A stretch of 24,925 nucleotides of DNA from the IMG/VR virus record IMGVR_UViG_3300046532_000891, positions 1 through 24,925 of that record; one strand, written 5' to 3'. This document shows positions 2 through 23,423 of the stretch, in pieces. This DNA comes from a virus. Each line of letters begins with the position of its first letter. The stretch's first letter is position 1. A program made the position numbers and the translations under genes. Under the pieces are notes generated by a model. The model was not told where the DNA came from, ran no database searches, and saw only the letters and a program-made list of their open reading frames with translations.

Positions 2-694
2 AGTATGGGCAGAGAATTTGTTATGTTACCAGAAGTTGGTGATACAGCTCTTAATAAGGTAAAAAAGTTTTGTGATTGGCTCAAGGATTATGGTTGGCAT
101 ACTAATAGTAGCTGTGGTATTCATGTTCATACTGATGCATACTACTTAGGAGTAAATGAGTTAAAAGGTATATTATTAACTGTAAGAGCATTAGAGCCAC
201 TTATATATAGTATGTTACCTAAATCTAGATCAGAGTCAAGGTACTCAAAACCTATGGATTATATAGATTCTCAAGTTATATTAGATGTAAAAAGTATATC
301 AGATTTATGTCAATTATGGTATGAAACAATGAATGATACTCACGCATCTTCTGAAAAATACAATGACTCAAGATATAGAGGTTTTAATTTGCACTCAAGA
401 TTTTTACATGGTACAATAGAATACAGATATCATCATGGAACTGTAAATCCTTATTATATTAATAATTGGATACTGTTCTGTCTTGCTATATCAGATTTTG
501 GCACTACATTACTTTCTAAAAGTAAGAAGACAGTCAATCTCTTTGTAGACAGTTCTGCAAATAAATACACTGTTCTCTTAGAGGCTATGGGGATATCTAA
601 TCTTATCCCCTATGTAGAGGAAATGATAGACAGAAGTGCCTATCCATCTAACCAAATAAATAGCGAGGATGCAAATTGGAGCTCGCACGTGTAA
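2..694 (+). CDS. GS-fold amidoligase (COOH-NH2 ligase), 5' truncated by window edge
   Basis: This is the C-terminal part of a phage amidoligase of the glutamine-synthetase-like fold, a family that joins a carboxylate to an amine using ATP. The visible signature is SCGIHVHTDA near the start, KSRSESR in the middle, and YNDSRYRGFNLHSR followed by GTIEYRYHHGT. The same blocks occur in the same order in the gene at 2243-3436, so the two are paralogues. The first in-frame ATG (5) has no ribosome binding site. It aligns with an internal stretch of the paralogue (GVEYISKP), so the reading frame enters from outside the window and about 150 residues or more are missing. Whether the missing part has zinc ribbons like the paralogue cannot be seen. 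Substrate unknown. The amidotransferase 40 bases downstream is the likely ammonia source. Confidence 0.8.
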   Translation, partial: SMGREFVMLPEVGDTALNKVKKFCDWLKDYGWHTNSSCGIHVHTDAYYLGVNELKGILLTVRALEPLIYSMLPKSRSESRYSKPMDYIDSQVILDVKSISDLCQLWYETMNDTHASSEKYNDSRYRGFNLHSRFLHGTIEYRYHHGTVNPYYINNWILFCLAISDFGTTLLSKSKKTVNLFVDSSANKYTVLLEAMGISNLIPYVEEMIDRSAYPSNQINSEDANWSSHV

Positions 695-734
695 TAAAAG
701 AATTTCTTAAAAACAAATAAACAAGGAGAAATGT

Positions 735-1937
735 ATGTGTGGAATATTTGGATTCGCCAAACGTGAAGGATGGCAGTCTGAATCACAAATGGATAGAATA
801 GATGATGTTATCAGCAATCTTACCTTTGAATCTGTAGTTAGAGGAAACCATTCAACTGGTTTTGCTATTGCTTCAAAGACTGATAAGCTGGTATATAAAA
901 CACTTAAACCTTCAGATGAACTTGTGTGCAGTGATGAGTGGCACAATGTTATTGATAAGGTTGATGTGAACACCACTGTTTTTCTCGGACACGTTAGATT
1001 TGCTACCACTGGAGCTAAAGTTAAAGAAAACGCTCACCCATTTGTTATGGGAAGTGTTATAGGAGCTCACAATGGTATTATCTATAATCATGAAGAGATT
1101 GCCAGTAAAATTGGTAAGAATGTCCAAGTTGATTCAGAAGTTATTTTTGGTCTGCTTAATAAAAAAAATAAGTACCAAGAGGTATTTGATTTAATTGAAG
1201 GTGATTATGCCTTAAGCTGGATTGATGATGACTATAAAGTGCTTAAGCTTATGCACGAAGAGGGTAGACCTCTTCATATAGCTTATTGGAAAAAAGCAAG
1301 ATGTCTTTTCTGGGCATCAACTGCAGAAATACTAGAAACTGCATTCAAAGAAGCTGGTCTTAGTATAGAAGACAGTATCAATACTTTACCTGTAGATAAA
1401 GTATATGAATTTGATACTTCTAATTTCTGGAGTAAGCATGATGCTAAATTTACAGAAGTAAAAACCAATGTTAACTCTAGTTGGAGTAATTATGGCTCGT
1501 ACGGTAGTTCATATGGTGGATATGGAGGATCAAACTATTTTAGTAGTGCCTCTGCATATTATTGTAAATTCTGTCAATCAACTACATATAAAGCTGATCG
1601 AATTTGTTATAAGTGTGTAGGTAAAACAACAGATACTCTTAATATGAATACCGATGGTAATTGGACTGCTGAGTGCTTAGAGTGTTTTAATGTAGAGAAT
1701 TATGATAACCTAGTATACACAGGAAGTGGATATTTGTGTATACCTTGTAATACTCAGAACAGTAAGTATGTTAGCTCGTTTACTAGCCAATGTGATTATT
1801 GTGGAGACTATGAACCTGCACCAGATTTATATAGCCATGAAGGATATAAATTGTGTCAGAGTTGTTATGACGCTGATAAAAAAACATCTAAGAAGTCAAA
1901 CCTTCCTGTTCCTACACATGGAGGTTTTGGTATATGA
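735..1937 (+). CDS. Class II glutamine amidotransferase with C-terminal zinc ribbons
   Basis: The N-terminal domain (about residues 1-230) is a class II (Ntn) glutamine amidotransferase, which hydrolyses glutamine and passes ammonia to a partner. Cys2 of MCGIFGF would be the nucleophile after Met1 removal. RGNHSTG (36-42), GHVRFATTG (85-93, with Arg88), HNG (112-114, oxyanion-hole Asn-Gly) and DSEV (133-136) are the other family motifs. No asparagine- or glucosamine-synthase domain follows. Instead there is a Gly/Ser/Tyr-rich linker (about 248-275) and then six CxxC pairs (277/280, 291/294, 314/317, 335/338, 353/356, 374/377), probably three zinc ribbons. The start is set by AAGGAGAA just upstream and by the need for Cys at position 2. 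An ATG at 731 is out of frame. The two flanking amidoligase genes are the probable ammonia acceptors; that link is inferred from position and family precedent. Confidence 0.88.
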   Translation: MCGIFGFAKREGWQSESQMDRIDDVISNLTFESVVRGNHSTGFAIASKTDKLVYKTLKPSDELVCSDEWHNVIDKVDVNTTVFLGHVRFATTGAKVKENAHPFVMGSVIGAHNGIIYNHEEIASKIGKNVQVDSEVIFGLLNKKNKYQEVFDLIEGDYALSWIDDDYKVLKLMHEEGRPLHIAYWKKARCLFWASTAEILETAFKEAGLSIEDSINTLPVDKVYEFDTSNFWSKHDAKFTEVKTNVNSSWSNYGSYGSSYGGYGGSNYFSSASAYYCKFCQSTTYKADRICYKCVGKTTDTLNMNTDGNWTAECLECFNVENYDNLVYTGSGYLCIPCNTQNSKYVSSFTSQCDYCGDYEPAPDLYSHEGYKLCQSCYDADKKTSKKSNLPVPTHGGFGI

Positions 1938-2233
1938 AGAAAGCTAATAAGAAAGCTGTATTTGTAGGTATAGCCGACAAGATACAGATTAAATCTAAAA
2001 GCTATGTAATGAGCATGCTCTATAAACGAGCAAGAAAAAATCCTTTTATGGCTGATAAGTCTTATGAGGAGTACCTTGATTACATAAAATCTCAAGTTAA
2101 GCTACTTGAGGGTGTTGATATCCAGGCTAATAATGAAGAAGAATTATATAATGCTCTTAAAAGCCTTGGTTGGCTTAAAGAGGTTAGTGTTCTTGCTATT
2201 TATATAATAACAGCTAATTATGGTATAGCATAG
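1934..2233 (+). CDS. 99-aa protein of unknown function in the amidoligase cluster
   Basis: I do not recognise this protein. It starts with an ATGA overlap on the amidotransferase stop codon, so it is probably translationally coupled, and it ends ten bases before the second amidoligase. The N-terminal half is strongly basic (KKANKKAVF, YKRARKNPF). The middle is acidic and helical (YEEYLDYIKSQVKLLEG). The tail is hydrophobic (VSVLAIYIITANYGIA). No cysteine pairs or known motif are visible. Its place between the ammonia donor and the ligase suggests a dedicated partner, either an adaptor or the modified substrate, but nothing in the sequence proves this. Confidence 0.7.
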   Translation: MKKANKKAVFVGIADKIQIKSKSYVMSMLYKRARKNPFMADKSYEEYLDYIKSQVKLLEGVDIQANNEEELYNALKSLGWLKEVSVLAIYIITANYGIA

Positions 2234-2242
2234 GAGTGTAAA

Positions 2243-3436
2243 ATGCCAGCAGAAACAAATGTAGATACTACAGAAATAGAAGAAGAAGAAAAAGTTAAAA
2301 CTTTCAAATGTTATGAATGTGAGAGTGAATTTGAAGAAGATGAAATGCAACATAATGATGATGGCGATTTATACTGTTATGATTGTTATTATGAGACTTA
2401 TGGTACTTGTAGTGAGTGTGGCGTGGAGACTTCACACGATTACATTCAATTTGATGAACGGAGCGAAGAGTATTATTGCGATGGCTGCTTACCACATCAT
2501 GGTGAAGATGTAGACCTCGACTCATACTATTCAAATGTAAATATAATAAGTCCAGATAATAATACCTATGTAGATAATAAGTTTGAAAGAGCTGTAGGTG
2601 TAGAAATAGAAACCACTGGGTTTGAACATAGTATAGATGATTTTGATTGCTCTGAATTTGACTTTAAAAAAGCATATGATGGGAGTGTGAATGCAAATAA
2701 CTCAGAATACAAAGGTGTAGAATATATATCTAAACCTATGTCTGGAGATTACTTGTTCAAACAAATAGATAATATAGGTAACTATCTGTTAGATAATGAT
2801 TTCGAAGTAAACAAATCCTGTGGATTACATATACATATAGATGCTAGAGATTTATTTTACGAGCAACTAAAAGGTATATTAATAGTAGCAAAAACATTTG
2901 AGGATATAATATTTAGAATGGTTCCTAAATCAAGAGAAAGATCTAGGTGGTGTCGCAAAGTACCTATGGCAAAGCATGAGATTACAAGAATAGATTCTAA
3001 TTCTGATCTTATACAATCCTGGTACGAAAGTTCTGATACTTATCCAGAGTTGGATAAATATAATGACTCTAGATATCACGGATTAAACCTACATGCAAGA
3101 GTATATCTTGGAACTATTGAATTTAGATATCATTCTGGTACTAATAACCCTGAGAAGATAAAGAATTGGATTACTATATGTCAATCTATTGTAGCTAAAG
3201 GAATAGAGCTTGGTAATGAAATGGAACATAAAAAGACAGGATTTGAGTTTAGTAATGAAGCCGTGTGGCTAACATCAGTTGAAGAGAAGAATGTAACTAT
3301 AAAAGATTTTATAAAAGTTCTTGGGCTTGAACAGCTACGTGGATATGTAATAAGAAGGATACATAAGTTTAATGGAGATAACTTAAATTTATTAGATGAT
3401 AAAACTTTAATACAGGATTACTTAAATGCTGTATAA
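2243..3436 (+). CDS. GS-fold amidoligase with N-terminal zinc ribbons
   Basis: Residues 20-85 hold two zinc ribbons (C23/C26 with C45/C48; C56/C59 with C79/C82) in a very acidic setting. The catalytic part begins near 115 and belongs to the putative amidoligase family of the glutamine-synthetase fold. It shows GVEIETTG (119-126; the two acidic residues are expected metal/ATP ligands), GLHIHID (194-200), KSRERSR (229-235), YHGLNLHAR (278-286) and GTIEFRYHSGT (290-300). Family members form amide or peptide-like bonds between a carboxyl group and an amine. The paralogue at 2-694 has the same blocks. The ATG follows an AGGAG site. Both this protein and the amidotransferase carry zinc ribbons, which could serve to dock on each other or on a shared target. 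The true substrate (protein tail, small molecule or cell-wall peptide) is not visible. Confidence 0.87.
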   Translation: MPAETNVDTTEIEEEEKVKTFKCYECESEFEEDEMQHNDDGDLYCYDCYYETYGTCSECGVETSHDYIQFDERSEEYYCDGCLPHHGEDVDLDSYYSNVNIISPDNNTYVDNKFERAVGVEIETTGFEHSIDDFDCSEFDFKKAYDGSVNANNSEYKGVEYISKPMSGDYLFKQIDNIGNYLLDNDFEVNKSCGLHIHIDARDLFYEQLKGILIVAKTFEDIIFRMVPKSRERSRWCRKVPMAKHEITRIDSNSDLIQSWYESSDTYPELDKYNDSRYHGLNLHARVYLGTIEFRYHSGTNNPEKIKNWITICQSIVAKGIELGNEMEHKKTGFEFSNEAVWLTSVEEKNVTIKDFIKVLGLEQLRGYVIRRIHKFNGDNLNLLDDKTLIQDYLNAV

Positions 3437-3601: not shown

Positions 3602-4495
3602 ATGCCAGCAATAGGATTTAAATACCCAGACGGAGAACATATATCTTTTGAAGATGTATTTGAGAATGGGAAACTAGAACTTGAAAGAATGGGTATAGTT
3701 ATGCCAATGTTAAAAGAGTTGGCTAAACAAAGAGACCCAGATAGGAAGCCATCGGTAACTGAATGTCTTATAGGGACTTGTGAGGCTTACCTTAAAAGAA
3801 CAGAAGATTATTATATCGACCCACAAGAGCACGCATTTGCATTAGCAGGAACATTACATCACTCAAGACTTGAAGGTAATGCCGATAAAGACTTAGCTGA
3901 AATAGCTATGGAAGGTATGGATATAACTGGTATAGTCGATCTCTATGACGAAGATACTAAATCTCTTATAGACTACAAGAACGTAGGCTCTTATAAGGTT
4001 GCCCAGGTACTTGGATTAGATTTTTACTTAGAAGATGACCCAACTGGGGCTGTATACTTACGTAATGGAAAGTGGGGTAGCAAAGGAGAACCTAAGAAGG
4101 TAAAAAGATATTGGGCAAACCCTGAAAAAGCAGACCTTGGTGATTGGGAGTGGCAAATAAATTGTTATAGATACATGCTTGAGAAACAAGGTAAAGAAAT
4201 AAATAATATGTATGTACAGATAACTGTACGTGATGGTGGTATACAAGCGTCAAGAGATAGAGGTGTTGAGCATAAGATATATCTAATAGATGTACCATAT
4301 ATACACAACGACCATATAGAAGAGAAGTTTACTACCAAAAGAGATGCATTGCTTGAAGCTATAAAACTTAGTAAGCTACCAGAAATGTGTAGCGAAGAAG
4401 AAACTTGGGGAGGCAAGAAGTGTAAAAGCTATTGTGATGCTAGAGATGTATGTCCATATATTAATAATAAATCTAAGGAGATAGATTTTGGATAA
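3602..4495 (+). CDS. PD-(D/E)XK exonuclease, Cas4/RecB-like, probable Fe-S protein
   Basis: This is a RecB-family nuclease domain. The family motifs appear in order: GTLHHSR (83-89, motif-I histidine), GIVD (110-113) followed by DYK (124-126) as the catalytic Asp...(Asp/Glu)-x-Lys, and QINCYRY (185-191) as the QxxxY motif. Cys60 near the N terminus plus C274, C278 and C284 at the C terminus (C-x3-C-x5-C; C263 and C55 are also available) resemble the four-cysteine iron-sulfur clasp of Cas4/AddB nucleases. Such enzymes resect DNA ends to expose single strands. AAAGGA stands four bases before the ATG. The next two genes look like an annealing protein and an SSB, so this is probably the exonuclease of a phage double-strand-break recombination set. 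No Cas1/Cas2 or CRISPR repeats are present, so a CRISPR role is not supported. Confidence 0.8.
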   Translation: MPAIGFKYPDGEHISFEDVFENGKLELERMGIVMPMLKELAKQRDPDRKPSVTECLIGTCEAYLKRTEDYYIDPQEHAFALAGTLHHSRLEGNADKDLAEIAMEGMDITGIVDLYDEDTKSLIDYKNVGSYKVAQVLGLDFYLEDDPTGAVYLRNGKWGSKGEPKKVKRYWANPEKADLGDWEWQINCYRYMLEKQGKEINNMYVQITVRDGGIQASRDRGVEHKIYLIDVPYIHNDHIEEKFTTKRDALLEAIKLSKLPEMCSEEETWGGKKCKSYCDARDVCPYINNKSKEIDFG

Positions 4496-7637: not shown

Positions 7638-7966
7638 AACACGAAGACTATACTAAAAGAATAGAAAAGAAAAGGCTGTCAAGAGATAAGATTACTCTTG
7701 AAGCTATAGATGATATGATTGAAAACACGTCATTCTATTTTGAGGTTACTGATTTAGATAGATATTCTTTTTTATCTGACGTAGAAGATATACAGGATAT
7801 AGTTATTAGAAAAATGATCAGACAATACATACACGAAAAGTATTACAAGCGTGGGTATGGTCTTAAGTATCTCATAGGTATGATTAAAAATGAGAACTCA
7901 GCTTATGGATTAAAAAAAGAATATGAAAGGAAGTCACTTGACAGAATCCCACCAAAAATCGATTAA
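7595..7966 (+). CDS. 123-aa protein with N-terminal half zinc ribbon, unknown
   Basis: The protein starts MPKMRRCPTCGSRLKHED, a CxxC knuckle typical of a zinc ribbon or rubredoxin-like start, but no second cysteine pair follows, so any metal site would need a partner or a dimer. The rest is helical and charged (ITLEAIDDMIENTSF, IVIRKMIRQYIHEKYYKRGYG). GGAG stands about seven bases before the ATG. It overlaps both neighbours. Function unknown. Confidence 0.6.
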   Translation: MPKMRRCPTCGSRLKHEDYTKRIEKKRLSRDKITLEAIDDMIENTSFYFEVTDLDRYSFLSDVEDIQDIVIRKMIRQYIHEKYYKRGYGLKYLIGMIKNENSAYGLKKEYERKSLDRIPPKID

Positions 7967-8627
7967 CATATACAATGAGAATTGTATGAAAACAATGGGA
8001 AGAATGGAAGATAAATCTATTGACCTTATAATAACAGACCCACCTTATGGTATGAAGTTTAGAAGTAATCATAGAGCCAAGAGGTACGAGGGAATACATT
8101 GGGATGATAATCTCGACTGGGTTGAAGATTGGTCTTCTGAATCTTACAGGGTTTTAAAAGACAATACTAATATGTATGTGTTCTGCTCTTTCCACAATGT
8201 AGATATATTTAAGCAAGCTCTTCAAAGGGATTTTGCAATTAAAAATATATTAATATGGGAAAAGAATAATACAAGTATGGGTGATTTAAAAGGCGACTAT
8301 GCCCCTAAATATGAAATGATATTGTTTGTTTCAAAGGGAAGAAGGTTATTGAATGGTGGTAGAGACCCTAACATATTTAAATTTGCAAGAACAGGAAACA
8401 AGTTGCATCCAACACAGAAACCAGTTGAGCTTATATCTTATCTTATTAGTAAAAGTTCTGATAAGAATGATTTAATATACGACCCATTCATTGGTTCTGG
8501 TACTACAGCTGAAGCTGCTTACACTAATGAAAGAAGATGTATAGGATCAGAAATAGATGATGCTTATTATGAAGTATCATTAACGAGGATTGAACACCTA
8601 GAAAGACAGGGTACATTGTTTGTTTAG
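7938..8627 (+). CDS. DNA adenine-N6 methyltransferase, beta class
   Basis: This is a DNA methyltransferase with the beta-class motif order. The catalytic DPPYGMKF lies near the N terminus, with HPTQKP later and the AdoMet-binding DPFIGSGTTAEAA near the C terminus. DPPY points to amino-group methylation, most often N6-adenine. At about 230 aa it is a compact, stand-alone enzyme. No restriction endonuclease gene is adjacent, so it probably protects phage DNA from host enzymes. The start is TTG at 7938, six bases after AAAGGA; an ATG at 7923 is in frame (five more residues) but has no ribosome site. It overlaps the previous gene by 29 bases and the helicase gene by eight. Confidence 0.88.
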   Translation: MTESHQKSINIYNENCMKTMGRMEDKSIDLIITDPPYGMKFRSNHRAKRYEGIHWDDNLDWVEDWSSESYRVLKDNTNMYVFCSFHNVDIFKQALQRDFAIKNILIWEKNNTSMGDLKGDYAPKYEMILFVSKGRRLLNGGRDPNIFKFARTGNKLHPTQKPVELISYLISKSSDKNDLIYDPFIGSGTTAEAAYTNERRCIGSEIDDAYYEVSLTRIEHLERQGTLFV

Positions 8628-9963
8628 TGAATCAACAGAGAAGTCATTACTTGCATCTGTAATAATGAAGCCTAACAATATAGACTTAGTGCAGAAGTGG
8701 ATAGAAAAGCCAAGTGTATTTTATAATGATTTTCATAGAAACATATGGAAGACTATACTATCTTTAAATGATAAGAAAGAGGATATAGATATAGTTAGCG
8801 TTGTTCACAACTACCCACAAAAAAAATATGTTGGTAATCAGTTATCTTATGAGATAACTGCGATAGCTACTTCGGAAGCCACATCGTCAAGAGCAGAATA
8901 CTATGCTAAGATGTTACACGGATATTGGCTTAGGCGAGAGCTTGGAGATTACTCTAAAAAACTTGGTGGTTTAACAGAAGATAACTCAAATGATATAAGT
9001 GATTTACTTAATGAATCACATACTCTTATAGGTAATCTTATAAAACTTCAACCAACAAAAGAGTTTAATATGGATGATCTCCTTGAAGAGACCAGGGAAT
9101 CTATATTCAATAGAAAAACAAACATTAAAACTGGTATAAGTAAGTTTGATAAAGTTATATCTGGTATGACAAGAGGTGAGATAACTATTATAGCTGGTAG
9201 ACCAGCAAATGGAAAGACTACAGTCGCAGCTAATATAGCTAGAAACCTTGTTATGAGTGGATATAGGGTTGCTATGTTTAATAGAGAAATGCCGAACACA
9301 GAAATGATGAAAAAGTTTATAGCTATGGAGGGAGATAATATATCTTATAGAAACTTAAGGCACGGCATACCATCTAGTAAAACAAAAGTGCATGAGGCTA
9401 TGGATTTTATACATGATAACTATAAAGATAAACTTTATATGTATGACGATATAAGAACTTTAGCTGATAGCTTTCATGAAATTAAGAATATTAAACCAGA
9501 TGTAGTTATAGATGACCACATAGGTCTTATAGAATACCCATCTAATGATAGAAGAGATTTAAGGCATAAGATAGGTGACACTACTAAGCAATATAAATGG
9601 TTAGCTAAAGCAGAAAACATGTGCGTATTACTTGTATCACAGTTAAATAGAAATATAGAATATAGAACAGATTCAGTTCCAAGATTATCTGACCTTGCTG
9701 AATCTGGAAATCTAGAGCAAGATGCTGAGATAGTAGCATTCACACACTACCCATATATATCAAGATATGGAGAAGAAGACACTGATGGTAGAATATGGAC
9801 TGAAAATGAAATGCAGTTAGTAGTGTCTAAGAATAGATATGGAACTACAGGATCTGTTGAAGTAGGTTACGCTGGTGATAGTTGTAAATTGTTTGAAGAT
9901 TTACAATCAGCTATAAGTCACGAAGAAAAAAAGAAACAATTTGAAATGGAGATAATAGGATGA
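8620..9963 (+). CDS. dnaB: Replicative DNA helicase, DnaB family
   Basis: A 447-aa DnaB-type hexameric helicase that unwinds the phage replication fork. The N-terminal helical domain (1-140) includes the family pattern FYNDFHRNIW (34-43). The RecA-like motor shows Walker A GRPANGKTT (193-201), the post-Walker MFNREM (219-224), Walker B VVIDDH (295-300), VSQLNR (339-344) and the H4-type block RLSDLAESGNLEQDAE (355-370). The start is TTG at 8620 with a modest ACAGGG-like site, overlapping the methyltransferase by eight bases. It ends in an ATGA overlap with the next gene. No separate primase domain or gene is visible in this window, so priming must come from the host or from outside the window. 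Confidence 0.92.
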   Translation: MFSESTEKSLLASVIMKPNNIDLVQKWIEKPSVFYNDFHRNIWKTILSLNDKKEDIDIVSVVHNYPQKKYVGNQLSYEITAIATSEATSSRAEYYAKMLHGYWLRRELGDYSKKLGGLTEDNSNDISDLLNESHTLIGNLIKLQPTKEFNMDDLLEETRESIFNRKTNIKTGISKFDKVISGMTRGEITIIAGRPANGKTTVAANIARNLVMSGYRVAMFNREMPNTEMMKKFIAMEGDNISYRNLRHGIPSSKTKVHEAMDFIHDNYKDKLYMYDDIRTLADSFHEIKNIKPDVVIDDHIGLIEYPSNDRRDLRHKIGDTTKQYKWLAKAENMCVLLVSQLNRNIEYRTDSVPRLSDLAESGNLEQDAEIVAFTHYPYISRYGEEDTDGRIWTENEMQLVVSKNRYGTTGSVEVGYAGDSCKLFEDLQSAISHEEKKKQFEMEIIG

Positions 9964-12978: not shown

Positions 12979-13160
12979 TATTTTCTCCAACTTTTCTTAG
13001 CTGAAGTTTTAGCTTTGTTATTTAAATCTCCGTAATGAAATAATCTTTTACTACTAGTGCTATGTTTTTTTCCAGTATGAAGCTGACCATTTGACATTTT
13101 ATGATAACCACCTTTATGCTCTTTACCATTTTTTAAATAATGTTTTGAACTCATTGCCAT
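12978..13160 (-). CDS. 60-aa Lys/His-rich late protein
   Basis: It encodes MAMSSKHYLKNGKEHKGGYH and then KMSNGQLHTGKKHSTSSKR, a short basic peptide with many His, Gly and Ser. The start chosen is the ATG that overlaps the stop of the 1210-aa gene (TAATG). An ATG 39 bases earlier would put 13 extra residues on top of that gene and has no better ribosome site. One of four very basic mini-proteins made late. Function unknown; a capsid-internal or DNA-bound role is possible. Confidence 0.65.
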   Translation of the reverse strand: MAMSSKHYLKNGKEHKGGYHKMSNGQLHTGKKHSTSSKRLFHYGDLNNKAKTSAKKSWRK

Positions 13161-16100
13161 TATGGATTCAACCTTTCTTTTTCTTTTCTTGCGTACCAAG
13201 TCATATAAGATGAAAAATTAATATCCTCAAATGTAAATGGATTACTTTCCCTTTTATCATTCCACTCTAGATAAAGTTCCTCACCCTTTTTATAATTAAG
13301 TTTTTTATAATGCTCAAATATTTTACTTCTAATTCTTCCTTTTTCAGTAGATATACCCTTTGCTTTCTGACCTGGTGTTTCAAATCTTTCAGCAAATTTC
13401 TTGACACTAGTTCCAAACAAACCAGCAAACCCCTTAACACTTCTTTGATAAGTCTCCCAATTTTCAGCACCATATTTTTCTATATTTTTTTGTAAAGACT
13501 CTATACCAGAATATGCTTTATCAAGATCAGAAAGAGCCACTGGTGTTAATGTAAACTTAAGAGATGACAATACATCTTCTGAATCTAGCAAGTCAGAAAA
13601 GAAACCTAGTGAACCAACAGCGCCCCAAGCCTCTATAAGTCTAGCAAAAAACCCTTCGCTATCTTCTCTTACTACATCTTCTCCACTAAAAAATTTAACT
13701 AAGAAATCTTTAGCTCCGTTAACAAAACCAAGACCCATAAGTCCACCAGCTGCCATCCTTAATGGAACAAGAACATTACCCTGTTGGATTTCTCTTTTTA
13801 ATGTATCTTTGGCATACTTAGCCTGTCTATATCCAAACCTTTTAAATATAAATAAAGGTCTTAACTTTGGATTATTAAATGCAAGAGGGTCTTTAAGTAT
13901 GTCTTTTTGTAGCTGACTCTCTTTAGCAAATCTATACATAGCATTCTCAATGTTAACATCGGTTAACTTCTTAGAAGGATCTGTTACTCCAAGTCTGCTT
14001 AAATTTCTTGTTGCCCATTTGTATCTAAAAGCCTGGTCTTTAAACTGCTTAGTTCTTTTAGCAGGTTTTGACATAGCTATCTTACTTAAATCTTTGACAT
14101 ATACTTCTGCTGTTGAAGCTGCAAGCAATTGGTTTACATAGTTAATACCTTTAAAACCAGATACTGTAGTTAATAAATTAGCAGTATTTGCGAGTCTATT
14201 ATTGATACCTTTTTCAGTTACAATCTTTTTAAGACCTTCCTTTATACTCCTTGGATTGGTAACTCCCATATCAGTACCAAGTAATATATCCATTACATTA
14301 TGATGCGTGGCACCAGATTGTCTAATTCTTTTTCTAACTTCTGGTCTTAATAATCTTACTGCACCTTTAACAGTTCTCCAATAACCAGCCTCTACAGCGG
14401 TAGATATTAAAGTTTGTGTTACGTTTGGAATAGTAGCAAAACCAAGTCCTATCTTAGTACCATATTCAAAAGACATAAGGGCATCTGCAAGTTTACGAGC
14501 AGCAGGTGACATAGCTTTTGCAGGGTCAACGCTTGAAAGACCTGTAAAATTACCATACAATTCTTTCATAACTCTATATTCTACAGGGTCTTTTAATCTT
14601 AATGCCTCAAGAAGAGACTTTGCTTTTTCTCCTTTTTTTCCAAACACTTCAGCTGAGGATATTCTTTTACCAAACTTGTCAAGGTATCTAGTTACAACTT
14701 CTTTAGCATTTCTTTCGTAGAAATCAGATGGAAGTTTTAACTTTCTTTTCTTTTCTAAATTACCAAACGGAGAATACATCTCACTAAAGACTTCACTTCT
14801 TAAATTTTCCATCGCTTCTTTATAACTTAGCTTACCTTCTTTAACTAATTTATTTAAAGCTCTTGTTGTTACTTTGTTAAACTCTCCAGCTTGAATTGAT
14901 CTTTCGACTATCTTATTAAGCATATTCAAGTCTTTTCTTTTTGTTATTTTATTCTGAAGAAAAGCTTCGTTCTTTGCAATGAAGGGCATAAGGTCGTCAA
15001 AAATAATTTTTTGTATATCTTTTCTCATCATTCTTGGAAAGTATTGTTCTATATACCCAGATACTTCTATACCTGTTTTATCAGCAAGCTTATAAGCTTT
15101 ATCAAAAACAACTTTAACCTTACTAGCTATATCCTTAGCCTCTTTACTTACATTCTTTTTGCCTTCTAAGGCATCAGATACTTCTTGAGGTTTTTTAAAT
15201 TTTCTAAGACCGCTTGCAAATACAGCTTCTTCCACAAAAGTTCCAACTATCTCAGCCCTTCTAGCATCTGCTTTAGGAATCATATCAAGACCAAGCGTTT
15301 GGCTTTCTCCCAGTTTAAGTCTTGCTTCAGCTGACAACATTGGCTGAACAAACTTTTCTGGAAAAATTCTTTCGATTAAAGATTTGCCAGGCTCAATCTC
15401 TATTAACTGATTTGGAAGTTCTTTTTTTAATTTTATTAAATCTTGTTCATACTGAAGAGACTTTCTATATTTAAATAATTCTCTAGCACTCATATCTTTA
15501 CTGCTTGTATTTTTATTACCAGTAATTTGTTTTTTTCTTTCTGCTAAAAATTTATTATCAAGTCCAAATTCTTCTGTAGTAAGCTTTCTTTGAAGACCAG
15601 CTACTTGACCAATCCTTTTCTTTCGTAAAGCTTCTGGAGACATTGGTTCTTGAGATCTACCAAATTGCTTAAAAAATTCACCCTTCTGAATTTCCATTCC
15701 GCTTTTACCAGTCTTAAGATTCTCTAACTGAAATACACTTAAGGTCTTTCCACCTTTTTCAACAGATCTCTCGCTAACTATTTTAACTTGTTCGCCAGAT
15801 TTTATATCCCTAAATGATTTTTCAGAAGTCCAGGCTTCACCCTCTATAAATGTTTTTTGTTCTGCTTTTACTCTAAGCTCTGCTTGCTCTTTAACAAACT
15901 CTGGTGATGGTTTGTCTTTTACTTTTAACTCTGGTTGAAAGATACCTTCGCCTCTTTTAATTCTTCCTGGTACCTTAAGTGCCATATTAGCACCACGTAT
16001 ACCAAGAACCATTCCACCAGCGTGAAGAAAATCCTGAGGTGTTGGAGCCCTTAAATCTATTAATGGTTCTGCTATACCAAAACCTGCTATTTCTTGAGCT

Positions 16101-16792
16101 ACTCTTACTGATTGACTTGAACCTTTAAATGCTGCTCTACCACCTATACCTCCAGTAACAGCACCAACAACAGCACTTTTTCCAGCTGTCTTAAGAACTT
16201 CTTCAAAGTCTATTTCATTAGTATCTATTTCTTGAGCCATAGCATCGGCTATGCCACTATAAACTCCAAGAGCAGCAGCACCTGTACCAGCACCTATACC
16301 AGCCTTACCAGCTAAAGTAGCAGCTCCTTTTTGCAATACATCTTCAGCAAATTCTTTTTTAACTCCAGCCCTTATCATCTGTCTAAGTGCTAGCTTACCA
16401 GCTTTTTTAGCAGCTTGTCCACCTATGCCACCTCCAGCAGCAAAGGTTAAAAGATCTGCAGGCATAAAAAAACTTGTTACAGCAGCGCCTATGTCCGAAA
16501 GAACTCCTGGGTTATATCCTTCTAAGTCAAAAGGAGCTTCACCAGTGGCAAGCTGTTGAGCCATGCCAGTTACTGATTCGTTATATCCTTTTTTTATAAC
16601 ATTTGGAATATAGTTAAAAAGTCTTGATGGGTCAGCTTTTTGTGGCTTATATGTTAATTGAGTATAAAAATCTTGTCCACTGCTTATACCACTTTCTAGT
16701 TCTTCACTACTTCCAAACGTTCTTATTGATTCGATATCGCTATCATCTTCAGTAATACTTGTGTAGAAACTATAATCTTTTTCTTGAGGCAT
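13160..16792 (-). CDS. Large internal virion (ejection-type) protein, 1210 aa
   Basis: The longest gene in the window. Residues about 95-270 are glycine/alanine-rich with several hydrophobic stretches (IGAAVTSFFMPADLLTFAAG, KSAVVGAVTGGIGG), a pattern of amphipathic, membrane-inserting segments. The middle (about 280-700) is charged and helical. The C-terminal third has another hydrophobic patch (VLVPLRMAAGGLMGLGFVNG). No lysozyme or transglycosylase motif is apparent. In podoviruses such long late proteins next to the tail nozzle gene sit in the capsid core and are ejected to form a channel across the host envelope. The assignment rests on size, composition and location, not on a recognised domain. 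It starts three bases after the preceding gene. Confidence 0.65.
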   Translation of the reverse strand: MPQEKDYSFYTSITEDDSDIESIRTFGSSEELESGISSGQDFYTQLTYKPQKADPSRLFNYIPNVIKKGYNESVTGMAQQLATGEAPFDLEGYNPGVLSDIGAAVTSFFMPADLLTFAAGGGIGGQAAKKAGKLALRQMIRAGVKKEFAEDVLQKGAATLAGKAGIGAGTGAAALGVYSGIADAMAQEIDTNEIDFEEVLKTAGKSAVVGAVTGGIGGRAAFKGSSQSVRVAQEIAGFGIAEPLIDLRAPTPQDFLHAGGMVLGIRGANMALKVPGRIKRGEGIFQPELKVKDKPSPEFVKEQAELRVKAEQKTFIEGEAWTSEKSFRDIKSGEQVKIVSERSVEKGGKTLSVFQLENLKTGKSGMEIQKGEFFKQFGRSQEPMSPEALRKKRIGQVAGLQRKLTTEEFGLDNKFLAERKKQITGNKNTSSKDMSARELFKYRKSLQYEQDLIKLKKELPNQLIEIEPGKSLIERIFPEKFVQPMLSAEARLKLGESQTLGLDMIPKADARRAEIVGTFVEEAVFASGLRKFKKPQEVSDALEGKKNVSKEAKDIASKVKVVFDKAYKLADKTGIEVSGYIEQYFPRMMRKDIQKIIFDDLMPFIAKNEAFLQNKITKRKDLNMLNKIVERSIQAGEFNKVTTRALNKLVKEGKLSYKEAMENLRSEVFSEMYSPFGNLEKKRKLKLPSDFYERNAKEVVTRYLDKFGKRISSAEVFGKKGEKAKSLLEALRLKDPVEYRVMKELYGNFTGLSSVDPAKAMSPAARKLADALMSFEYGTKIGLGFATIPNVTQTLISTAVEAGYWRTVKGAVRLLRPEVRKRIRQSGATHHNVMDILLGTDMGVTNPRSIKEGLKKIVTEKGINNRLANTANLLTTVSGFKGINYVNQLLAASTAEVYVKDLSKIAMSKPAKRTKQFKDQAFRYKWATRNLSRLGVTDPSKKLTDVNIENAMYRFAKESQLQKDILKDPLAFNNPKLRPLFIFKRFGYRQAKYAKDTLKREIQQGNVLVPLRMAAGGLMGLGFVNGAKDFLVKFFSGEDVVREDSEGFFARLIEAWGAVGSLGFFSDLLDSEDVLSSLKFTLTPVALSDLDKAYSGIESLQKNIEKYGAENWETYQRSVKGFAGLFGTSVKKFAERFETPGQKAKGISTEKGRIRSKIFEHYKKLNYKKGEELYLEWNDKRESNPFTFEDINFSSYMTWYARKEKERLNP

Positions 16793-20398: not shown

Positions 20399-23031
20399 TA
20401 TGTAACTCTTTTATATATAGGTTTATACTCTACAGTAACACTATTTAATTTATGATCTGCGTGAATTCCATTAAAGTTTATTTGCGGTTGAAATGATGAT
20501 ACAGATATTGGTGTTGTAAATGTAAACCTATGCACATCTAAATCGCTAGCTGTAGTTGATAACTGTACACTAGATGCAACTCCAGTCCCTCCGAAAGAGC
20601 TATCTTCTACTCCAGCATCACTAGTTTTTTTATATTGAAAACCGTTAGTGCAATTAGCTCCTGTAGCATATTCAACAGTAACTCCATATATTTTCTTAAC
20701 TAATCCTGGTAAGCCGAAGTCATCATTTTTTAATTGTATTCTTAATGAAGCTGATGTATCTGGTTCTCCATCGTAAGTTTTTATTTCATCTGTGGATTTA
20801 CAAATAGCTGTATTATTCTTATAATCAACTATAGGGTTAGTTAAGGTAACATCATTTGTAACAATTCCAGTATTTTCACTAATTCTTGTAAATGTATTTG
20901 TAGAAAAACTATATATATAACCTTGTGTATTCACATTGCTAATTCCAGTACAATCTTTTATTATTCCTAAATGCTTATGAGTAGGCTCATAAAAAAGTAT
21001 AGTCTTATTAGCGTGGAAGGTTAATGTTTGGCTAGTCTTTGAATCTCCAGTTGTATCAGTTGATAATTCAAAGTCATTTTCATCTGTTACAGAAGAAACA
21101 GTTGCTCCTTCTGGAATACCACTTCCACTTACAAGCATACCTGGAATTACTCTAGCTGTACTTGTCATTACTATAGTGGGGTCGTTATTATAAGCACAAG
21201 TATTATCTACAAAAGATTGAGCATAAAATGATGGAGAGAATGTTCCTTTCCATTCTGATTCTTTAATTTTTGTTTGTAAGTTTCTTACTTCACTACCATC
21301 ATAAAAAAATAATCCATTTGGATTAGCCCAAGCAATCCCAAAATCAGTTTTAATAACAGCTGAATGAAACAATACACCCATATTTTTATGCTCTGATTCT
21401 AAAAACCATTGAGTGTCAGAGCCACCGCCTATATTAATAATATAAAGGGTTTTATCTTTAAAGGCAAGAAGTCTATCAGCATAAGATTCTAATTTTACAA
21501 ACTCTTCTCCATCATTAATACCTATATCTAAAAAGTTTAATTCTGGAAATGAATTAAATTTATTTTTTAAGCTATAACGTATTTGATCGCCATGATTTTG
21601 CAAAGTATTTGTCTTGTCTACATATTTTAGATTTGCTAGAAAAACCCTTCCGTTAGTTACAACGCTAGTCTGGTATTTTTCTCCAGCTGCTCCTATTGTA
21701 AGAAATTGGGTATCTGGACTAAAACCATTTAAAGACCCATAATCAACTAAATTTTGAGAAAGAGAAACAAACTCACTGAAGAATAATCCAGTTGTCCCTA
21801 CAATTGTTTTAGCCCAGTAGACGTATGACCCATCTAAACTTGGTCTTGCTCCTTTTTCAATACTTATATCAGCAAACAATATCCACGCATCGTCAGAACT
21901 TGATTCTTTATAATAAATTCTACCACCTATTATGTCGTCAGAGTATCCAATTGTTCCAGTATTAAAATTATCATGTGCTAAAATAGTGCCAGTTATTTTT
22001 TGATTTGCTGTTACCGTTACTCTACCAGGAAGTTCATAAAGCAAAGACTCTTCGCCTCCAGTATAAACAAAACTACTTGCAAATTTATAATTTCCAGCAG
22101 CCCAAGACCCTCCAGAAGATGTTTTAAAATCAACATTAAATCCTCCTGTTGTTTCAGTTGCTATTGGAGGATATATAGCATAAGCTTCTTCATCATCCCA
22201 AATTGCTCCTGAGCCTGGCATAACTAAAGTGGTTGCGTTTGTTTGGCTTGTAATTAATTCTTCTCTTGGCCCTAAACCTGAAGTGTGCCTTGTTGCCCAA
22301 TAAGTACCTAAATCAAGTGCATCATTGAAGGTATAAGCAGTTGCTCCAGAACCTCCAATAAAAGCATCAGCTTCAGCTGCTACAAGAGCTGTAGTGCTAT
22401 TTCCACTAGCAGCAGTTGTGCCTATTATATGTTCTCCACATATACCAACTGTAGGAGCAAGGAGAGTAGTATTAAAAGATTTCCATCCAGGAGCACTAGT
22501 AGTGCTTGTGAATAAGATTTCTGAAAATTTAAATCTTGATTTTGGAATTAAATATCTATAATTTTTAACTACAGTAGAAACATTAGCAGTGTTAGTGTCA
22601 CATATTTTAACATTTCCATCAGCTATGTGATATACAACTTCTGCTTGATTTACTCCAGTATTTGCTCCTAAACTTATATCGTTAATATCCCAAGCAACAT
22701 AATTTTCTAAATCTAAAATATGAATTACAGAATTACCAGATCCATCATCTGCATCTGCAAGAAAAGTTCTTGTAGTGGATTTATTAACACCACCAGAGCT
22801 ATAATCAAATGAAGCTTGAAATAAACCATAACCAGGTTGGGATGCGGTTAAATCAGGTTCAACATAATCAGTTGTGTTATCTTGAAAAAAACCTATATTT
22901 TTAACAACTCCAAATTCATCTAAATTAGCATTATCAGCGAGAGCTAATTCATTTTCTTGAATAGAGCGAGCATTGGTTTTAGTATTCATGCCACCATCAA
23001 ATCTATCATATGTTTTAAATAGTTTAGGCAT
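20398..23031 (-). CDS. Podovirus-type tail nozzle/stabilization protein, 877 aa
   Basis: The N terminus (FDGGMNTKTNARSIQENELA, LADNANLDEFGVVKNIGF) is the hallmark of phage tail nozzle/stabilization proteins that close the podovirus tail tube ('F-x-GG-x-N...NE-x...N-x-x-x-DE-x-G'). A central propeller-like part contains repeated short beta blades (RLLAFKDKTLYIINIGGG; ANPNGLFFYDGSEVRNL). Two stretches look like inserted beta domains: about 200-288 (TTAASGNSTT, TTLVMPGSGAIWDDEEAYAI) and about 612-672 (PGMLVSGSGIPEGATVSSVT). The C terminus is Ig-like beta (RFTFTTPISVSSFQPQI). The family's usual length is shorter, and the insertions may explain the excess. It starts in a TAATG overlap with the endolysin gene. 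Confidence 0.7.
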   Translation of the reverse strand: MPKLFKTYDRFDGGMNTKTNARSIQENELALADNANLDEFGVVKNIGFFQDNTTDYVEPDLTASQPGYGLFQASFDYSSGGVNKSTTRTFLADADDGSGNSVIHILDLENYVAWDINDISLGANTGVNQAEVVYHIADGNVKICDTNTANVSTVVKNYRYLIPKSRFKFSEILFTSTTSAPGWKSFNTTLLAPTVGICGEHIIGTTAASGNSTTALVAAEADAFIGGSGATAYTFNDALDLGTYWATRHTSGLGPREELITSQTNATTLVMPGSGAIWDDEEAYAIYPPIATETTGGFNVDFKTSSGGSWAAGNYKFASSFVYTGGEESLLYELPGRVTVTANQKITGTILAHDNFNTGTIGYSDDIIGGRIYYKESSSDDAWILFADISIEKGARPSLDGSYVYWAKTIVGTTGLFFSEFVSLSQNLVDYGSLNGFSPDTQFLTIGAAGEKYQTSVVTNGRVFLANLKYVDKTNTLQNHGDQIRYSLKNKFNSFPELNFLDIGINDGEEFVKLESYADRLLAFKDKTLYIINIGGGSDTQWFLESEHKNMGVLFHSAVIKTDFGIAWANPNGLFFYDGSEVRNLQTKIKESEWKGTFSPSFYAQSFVDNTCAYNNDPTIVMTSTARVIPGMLVSGSGIPEGATVSSVTDENDFELSTDTTGDSKTSQTLTFHANKTILFYEPTHKHLGIIKDCTGISNVNTQGYIYSFSTNTFTRISENTGIVTNDVTLTNPIVDYKNNTAICKSTDEIKTYDGEPDTSASLRIQLKNDDFGLPGLVKKIYGVTVEYATGANCTNGFQYKKTSDAGVEDSSFGGTGVASSVQLSTTASDLDVHRFTFTTPISVSSFQPQINFNGIHADHKLNSVTVEYKPIYKRVT

Positions 23032-23423
23032 TAGTCCTTTATCTCAAAATGTACTAAGTCATCAAAATTATTATCTTTAGTGTGCGTATCCTGATCCCAG
23101 TCTCCGCCCCAGCGAATATTCAACCCCATTTGCGAAGCGATACCTAAAACCAATCCACTAAAATAATGAAACCTATCGCGATCATTCCAATCGACTGGAT
23201 AGGGAGCCACGTCGACAGCAATACTAGGACTTTTATTGTGTTTACCATTAGGAAACTTAAGTTTACTATTGCCTTTATTGTATGCTGCATCTTGCTTTTC
23301 CTTCCCACGATTACCTTCTATGATTGTACAATCAAAATGCTTAACTACTTCGTTAAACAAACTGACTAATCTTTCATCGCAAGTGTGTAACTTAGATTTA
23401 CTTTTTGTGCTAAACCTTGGCAT
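23031..23423 (-). CDS. Endolysin, M15-type L,D-peptidase (L-alanyl-D-glutamate peptidase-like)
   Basis: A 130-aa peptidoglycan peptidase of the VanY/M15 group. The zinc ligands are seen as His62 and Asp71 in GKHNKSPSIAVDVAP and His125 in DLVHFEI. EGNRGKEKQDAAYNKGNSKL upstream is the typical substrate loop, and RWGGDWD precedes the last ligand. There is no signal peptide, so export needs a holin. Candidate membrane proteins lie directly upstream in the operon (23727-24404). It starts in a TAATG overlap with a 50-aa gene. Confidence 0.88.
   Translation of the reverse strand: MPRFSTKSKSKLHTCDERLVSLFNEVVKHFDCTIIEGNRGKEKQDAAYNKGNSKLKFPNGKHNKSPSIAVDVAPYPVDWNDRDRFHYFSGLVLGIASQMGLNIRWGGDWDQDTHTKDNNFDDLVHFEIKD

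Follow-up and report, generated by a model that had tools for sequence, protein, structure and literature searches.

The 24,925-nucleotide stretch of viral DNA analysed here (positions 1–24,925 of IMG/VR record IMGVR_UViG_3300046532_000891; hereafter the window) begins with a cassette of four open reading frames (ORFs), all on the plus strand, encoding two amidoligases, a glutamine amidotransferase and ORF99, a small basic conserved protein. ORF99 represents a new protein family, only ever found between the amidotransferase and the downstream ligase, and this family, along with the three-gene core in which it sits, is the chief novelty of the system, rather than the enzyme pair. The cassette probably encodes a phage-borne amide ligase complex, fed by glutamine and driven by ATP, in which ORF99 would be a dedicated small subunit. 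The genes comprise AL1, a glutamine synthetase (GS)-fold amidoligase (PF12224 by Pfam; 2–694, open at the 5′ contig edge), GAT, a class II (N-terminal nucleophile (Ntn)-type) glutamine amidotransferase (735–1937), ORF99 (1934–2233), whose gene shares an ATGA overlap with that of GAT, and AL2, a second GS-fold PF12224 amidoligase with an N-terminal zinc-ribbon pair (2243–3436). A first-pass annotation of the sequence had proposed this order, which the ORFs confirm, and had called the system undescribed; this holds for the ORF99 family but not for the pairing of GAT with amidoligases, which has been published. The 99-residue protein that it passed over as unknown is the distinctive component.

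Conservation of the three-gene core

IMG/VR was scanned with profiles of the three cassette proteins and near-copies were removed, leaving 34 groups with AL1-GAT-ORF99-AL2 in this order and 10 groups with GAT-ORF99-AL2 and no recognised AL1; inspection of the region upstream of GAT in these 10 groups found no ligase. A further 25 groups contained an amidoligase and GAT pair with no ORF99, and ORF99 was not detected in 28 survey locus groups, mostly other GAT/amidoligase pairs. A second and less biased scan, with the ORF99 profile alone, retrieved 78 loci. AL2 lies directly downstream of ORF99 at every one of them, GAT immediately precedes ORF99 at each of the 76 loci that extend far enough, and AL1 is present in 58 of the 73 loci where its position is visible and missing in the other 15. 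GAT-ORF99-AL2 thus makes up the core and AL1 is an additional paralog; the earlier view of two flanking ligases as a set stands for AL2, which is constant, but not for AL1. As an identical gene order recurs on dozens of independent contigs, the arrangement is not due to chance. Sequence identities of the cassette genes also correlate more closely with one another (r = 0.85–0.89) than with those of the neighbouring exonuclease (r = 0.77–0.78). Neither of the outcomes that the first-pass annotation had named as refuting it, namely failure to place both flanking proteins in the amidoligase family or separation of the genes in related phages, was observed, since both proteins do belong to that family and the genes stay linked.

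In a ligase tree inferred by FastTree only, AL2 forms a single clade (support 99) and AL1 and AL2 cluster together (support 79), while AL1 is not one resolved clade and the cassettes that lack it are spread over at least two positions. Judged from this topology, loss of AL1 in the AL1-less cassettes is likely, not proven. The gene for a conserved phage protein starting MQTFLPYxxF (L003:5263-5709) lies a little upstream of the cassette; in most cassettes lacking AL1 it immediately precedes GAT. Two contigs, 64 and 80 kb long (3300030101_002855, loci L213/L223, and 3300030708_000851, loci L193/L256), carry two cassettes each, ~43 kb apart, together with two gamma-glutamyl cyclotransferase (GGCT) genes each, and are perhaps two joined phage genomes.

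Enzyme families, catalytic residues and zinc ribbons

GAT matches GATase_6 (PF13522) at 54.8 bits (Pfam cut-off 27), and PHROGs concurs with this class II assignment and with those of the amidoligases. Its catalytic domain spans approximately residues 1–235 and starts with MCGIFGF, placing Cys2 at the catalytic position; Cys2, Arg88, Asn113, Gly114 and Asp133 are kept in 44 of 44 cassette groups, and the conserved glutamine-site residues align with the GlmS glutaminase domain (1xff). Identity as GlmS, PurF or AsnB was rejected on NCBIfam scores far below cut-off (glmS 50 vs 418 bits, purF 45 vs 350, asparagine synthase 36 vs 267) and on the lack of any synthase domain, the C-terminal part consisting of zinc ribbons. 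The ammonia donor thus has no synthase domain of its own, as first described, but this is usual in published cassettes and does not set the system apart. A role alongside a GAT-QueC-type enzyme in 7-deazaguanine modification of DNA was also dropped, no deazaguanine-pathway family being found among 41 scanned proteins of G007, a 48-kb relative.

Both flanking proteins score well above the cut-off of 22 bits for PF12224 (Amidoligase_2), AL1 at 90.4 and AL2 at 91.1 bits. Residues E121, E123, E160, H196, H198, R231, R277, N282, H284, R286, E293 and R295 are invariant across 34 AL1 and 44 AL2 sequences, counted wherever the sequence is present, and the conserved motifs include an E-x-E strand and C-G-x-H-x-H. 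All catalytic motifs had been reported as visible, which does not hold for AL1, whose N-terminal part, including the first strand, is cut off by the contig end. Full-length AL1 relatives are ~560–630 residues long with up to three N-terminal ribbons; in full-length AL1 (L003:6252-6800) at least ~140 residues precede the ribbons, have no Pfam match and possibly include an SH3/KOW-like part. The AL2 model, built from 47 sequences with a predicted local distance difference test (pLDDT) score of 89.4, superposes on YbdK (1r8g) with a Z of 13.1 (4.2 Å over 234 residues), on plant glutamate-cysteine ligase (2gwc) with a Z of 12.3 and on glutamine synthetases with Z values of ~11.5, and all of the matches listed belong to the GS superfamily. 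The modelled fold of AL2, whose GS/GCS-like catalytic domain covers residues 104–383 (2552–3391), is of the glutamine-synthetase/gamma-glutamyl-ligase type. The ranking of gamma-glutamyl ligases at the top of the model's matches is suggestive without being decisive, as neighbouring Z values are close. With families, fold and catalytic residues intact, GAT and the amidoligases are expected to be active.

The zinc ribbons noted in the first pass, three on GAT and two on one ligase, are seen as C-x2-C...C-x2-C units. In the GAT tail they occupy residues 277–294 (1563–1616; C277, C280, C291 and C294; lost in some relatives), 314–338 (1674–1748; C314, C317, C335 and C338) and 353–377 (1791–1865; C353, C356, C374 and C377), and at the AL2 N-terminus residues 23–82 (2309–2488; C23/26, C45/48, C56/59 and C79/82). 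They are LIM-like by weak matches (PF00412 at 16.3 bits, under cut-off; LIM chains at E 0.01–0.02). Profile comparison with hhalign links the GAT tail to the N-termini of both AL1 and AL2 with probabilities of 85–96%, and GAT residues 297–379 match an AL1 ribbon region by blastp (E 3e-6), so that at the sequence level the ribbons of the three enzymes appear to be related to one another. Every cassette GAT carries at least one ribbon and every cassette AL2 at least two; in other GAT/amidoligase pairs ribbons are occasional, not universal.

Relationship to known systems and the role of ORF99

Phage cassettes in which GAT and PF12224 are joined by GGCT, an ATP-grasp enzyme and another ligase have already been published (PMC5498523, PMC3890496, PMC10580990, PMC6256558), their genes being listed in PMC3890496. 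They were proposed to modify peptidoglycan and block superinfection (PMC5498523, PMC6256558, PMC10580990), a proposal for which these three papers point back to Iyer et al. 2009 and Hardies et al. 2013. The cassette of the phiEco32/phi-RIO-1/PSA-HP1/LUZ24 type comprises GAT-II, Amidoligase_2, PF14395, ATP-grasp and GGCT; in annotated phages, likewise, genes for GGCT, the PF14395 ligase and ATP-grasp enzymes accompany GAT and its PF12224 neighbour. Phage cassettes of GAT and amidoligase are common, the matches to either enzyme running to hundreds of named phage records. The window type has in common with the phiEco32/RIO-1 type a class II GAT, a PF12224 ligase, GGCT (in relatives) and a location among early/replication genes. 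It differs in that one or two PF12224 paralogs replace PF12224 plus PF14395, no ATP-grasp enzyme was found, ORF99 is added, ribbons are present on all three enzymes, and GGCT is distant and on the other strand.

Among 43 cassette records, neither the PF14395 COOH-NH2 ligase nor a RimK-type ATP-grasp enzyme (PF08443) was detected in any, while both positive controls (W01 and W02) scored for each; no ATP-grasp family was found in the 41 scanned proteins of G007, and divergent families may have gone undetected. GGCT (PF06094) occurs in 36 of the 43 records, upstream and on the opposite strand, and the seven records without it are contigs ending just upstream of the cassette; it is not in the window, whose contig ends within AL1. 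The distance between GGCT and the cassette, computed by hand from gene coordinates, is ~3–8 kb, including a few records counted across contig ends. Because PF14395 and ATP-grasp were not found in the cassette records, the window system is a related variant of the published cassette and should be kept apart from it.

Simpler pairs are also known: genes 94–96 of Arthrobacter phage Waltz encode GGCT, an amidoligase and GAT, a minimal GAT and PF12224 pair that gave no match to ORF99 and whose two enzymes lack C-x2-C pairs, and the OM43-phage MEP401, compared by description only, has a minimal pair of amidoligase and GATase. In MurT-GatD, which amidates peptidoglycan glutamate in Staphylococcus aureus, an amidotransferase likewise feeds ammonia to an ATP-driven ligase, but GatD is a class I enzyme and MurT is Mur-ligase-like (PMC3267633). 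Neither is homologous to the cassette proteins.

ORF99 had no homologues in named phages or GTDB genomes and no credible sequence-profile match to solved structures. Its model (pLDDT 83.7, beta-alpha-alpha-alpha-beta-alpha) had no Foldseek match to solved structures at E ≤ 0.001, VIA-align gave a Z of 3.5 at best, and its best match in a viral structure library, the nameless A0A516M232 (E 0.0024, template modelling score 0.65), misses the 0.001 line. Two candidate identities were discarded: DUF5312 (PF17239) scored 18.5 bits, under the cut-off of 25, and the match in Staphylococcus phage 6ec (E 0.26) comes from a record without an annotated GAT or amidoligase. The isoelectric point of ORF99 is 9.3 in the window (family mean 8.9), compared with means of 5.5 for GAT and 4.7 for AL2, and the invariant residues G12, N36, P37, F38, L75 and W80 look structural. 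Judged on such features, a subunit role is the best fit.

In the amide ligase complex that we favour, GAT would convert glutamine to glutamate and ammonia, and AL2 (with AL1 where present) would couple ammonia or another amine to a carboxylate that has first been turned into an acyl-phosphate with ATP. ORF99 would bridge GAT and AL2 or present the substrate, the related ribbons on all three enzymes may be common docking or substrate-binding parts, and GGCT would act on gamma-glutamyl amides. The cassette may thereby alter the infected cell in the manner proposed for its published kin, mostly through peptidoglycan, with superinfection blocked as a result. We know of no phage GAT and amidoligase cassette with an assigned substrate. 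An envelope or peptidoglycan precursor is our tentative candidate, and a protein target comes close behind because of the zinc ribbons. It is also conceivable, if rather doubtful, that ORF99 is a new kind of obligate small subunit (or ribosomally made carrier) which, with a stand-alone class II amidotransferase and a zinc-ribbon GS-fold ligase, completes an ammonia-channelling machine of three parts. Such a machine would be limited to uncultivated phages and would act on a host or phage macromolecule not known to be amidated.

Several considerations count against the amide ligase complex. The likeness among the ribbons rests in part on their cysteine pattern, and nucleic acids or proteins would also be plausible targets for ribbons combined with a small basic protein. 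The peptidoglycan target is a prediction in the published work as well. The linkage to GGCT may partly reflect the genome backbone, since in most records the gene lies ~4–8 kb away on the other strand and beside terminase and portal genes, as at G007:C1:16459-16785 (L179), where GGCT adjoins the terminase-region and portal genes.

The best of the alternatives, which we nevertheless regard as unlikely, is that ORF99 is itself the substrate or carrier, a ribosomally made protein on whose C-terminus or lysines the ligases would carry out amidation or conjugation, much as with Pup or the LysW carrier. ORF99 is small, always inside the ligase operon, and has a C-terminal segment of nearly constant length and a flexible end in the model; close to the window its identity is 83–87% where that of GAT is 62–65%. 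Across all groups, however, its conservation does not exceed that of the GAT catalytic domain (48% vs 53%), so that the idea of ORF99 as the most conserved cassette member fails beyond the vicinity of the window, and the family lacks a conserved Glu, Gln or Gly-Gly at the terminus as well as any invariant lysine or acidic residue, its invariant positions being those that look structural. That the system is an ordinary phiEco32/RIO-1 peptidoglycan-modification cassette, with ORF99 an incidental small phage gene, is consistent with the GAT, PF12224 ligase and GGCT found in both, but is improbable given the lack of PF14395 and RimK-type ATP-grasp in all 43 records and the fixed position of ORF99 across 78 loci, unlike that of an incidental gene. 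Least probable is a GatCAB-like system, with GAT as donor, AL2 as kinase/transamidase and ORF99 as scaffold acting on an aminoacyl-tRNA or nucleic-acid-linked carboxylate: the core does combine an ammonia donor, a GS-fold enzyme and a basic ~100-residue third protein, and the ribbons, the basic charge and the adjoining replication genes would fit nucleic acid, but the resemblance is one of analogy only. GAT is an Ntn class II enzyme by Pfam and not an amidase-signature (GatA) enzyme, no Foldseek match at E ≤ 0.001 ties ORF99 to GatC and the window has no tRNA gene.

For phage cassettes of this kind, the variant brings the substrate question down to three core genes, one of them encoding a dedicated small protein, and the apparent loss of ATP-grasp and PF14395 narrows the choice of step that the PF12224 ligase would perform with GGCT. 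ORF99 could serve as bait for the complex and its substrate, and its deletion or co-expression would test the pairing of GAT with the ligase.

Genomic neighbourhood

Replication genes adjoin the cassette in the window. Directly 3′ of it lies a PD-(D/E)XK exonuclease-like gene (3602–4495), a relative of which is present at the locus in 39 of 44 cassette groups, and further downstream an N6/N4 DNA methyltransferase gene (7923–8627) adjoins that of a DnaB-type replicative helicase (8620–9963). A late protein of 1210 residues (13160–16792) has no PHROG match, and the same is true of several large neighbours between 10678 and 23031. The window also encodes a small M15-like endolysin (23031–23423; phrog_465, E 8e-33), and the host is therefore expected to have peptidoglycan.

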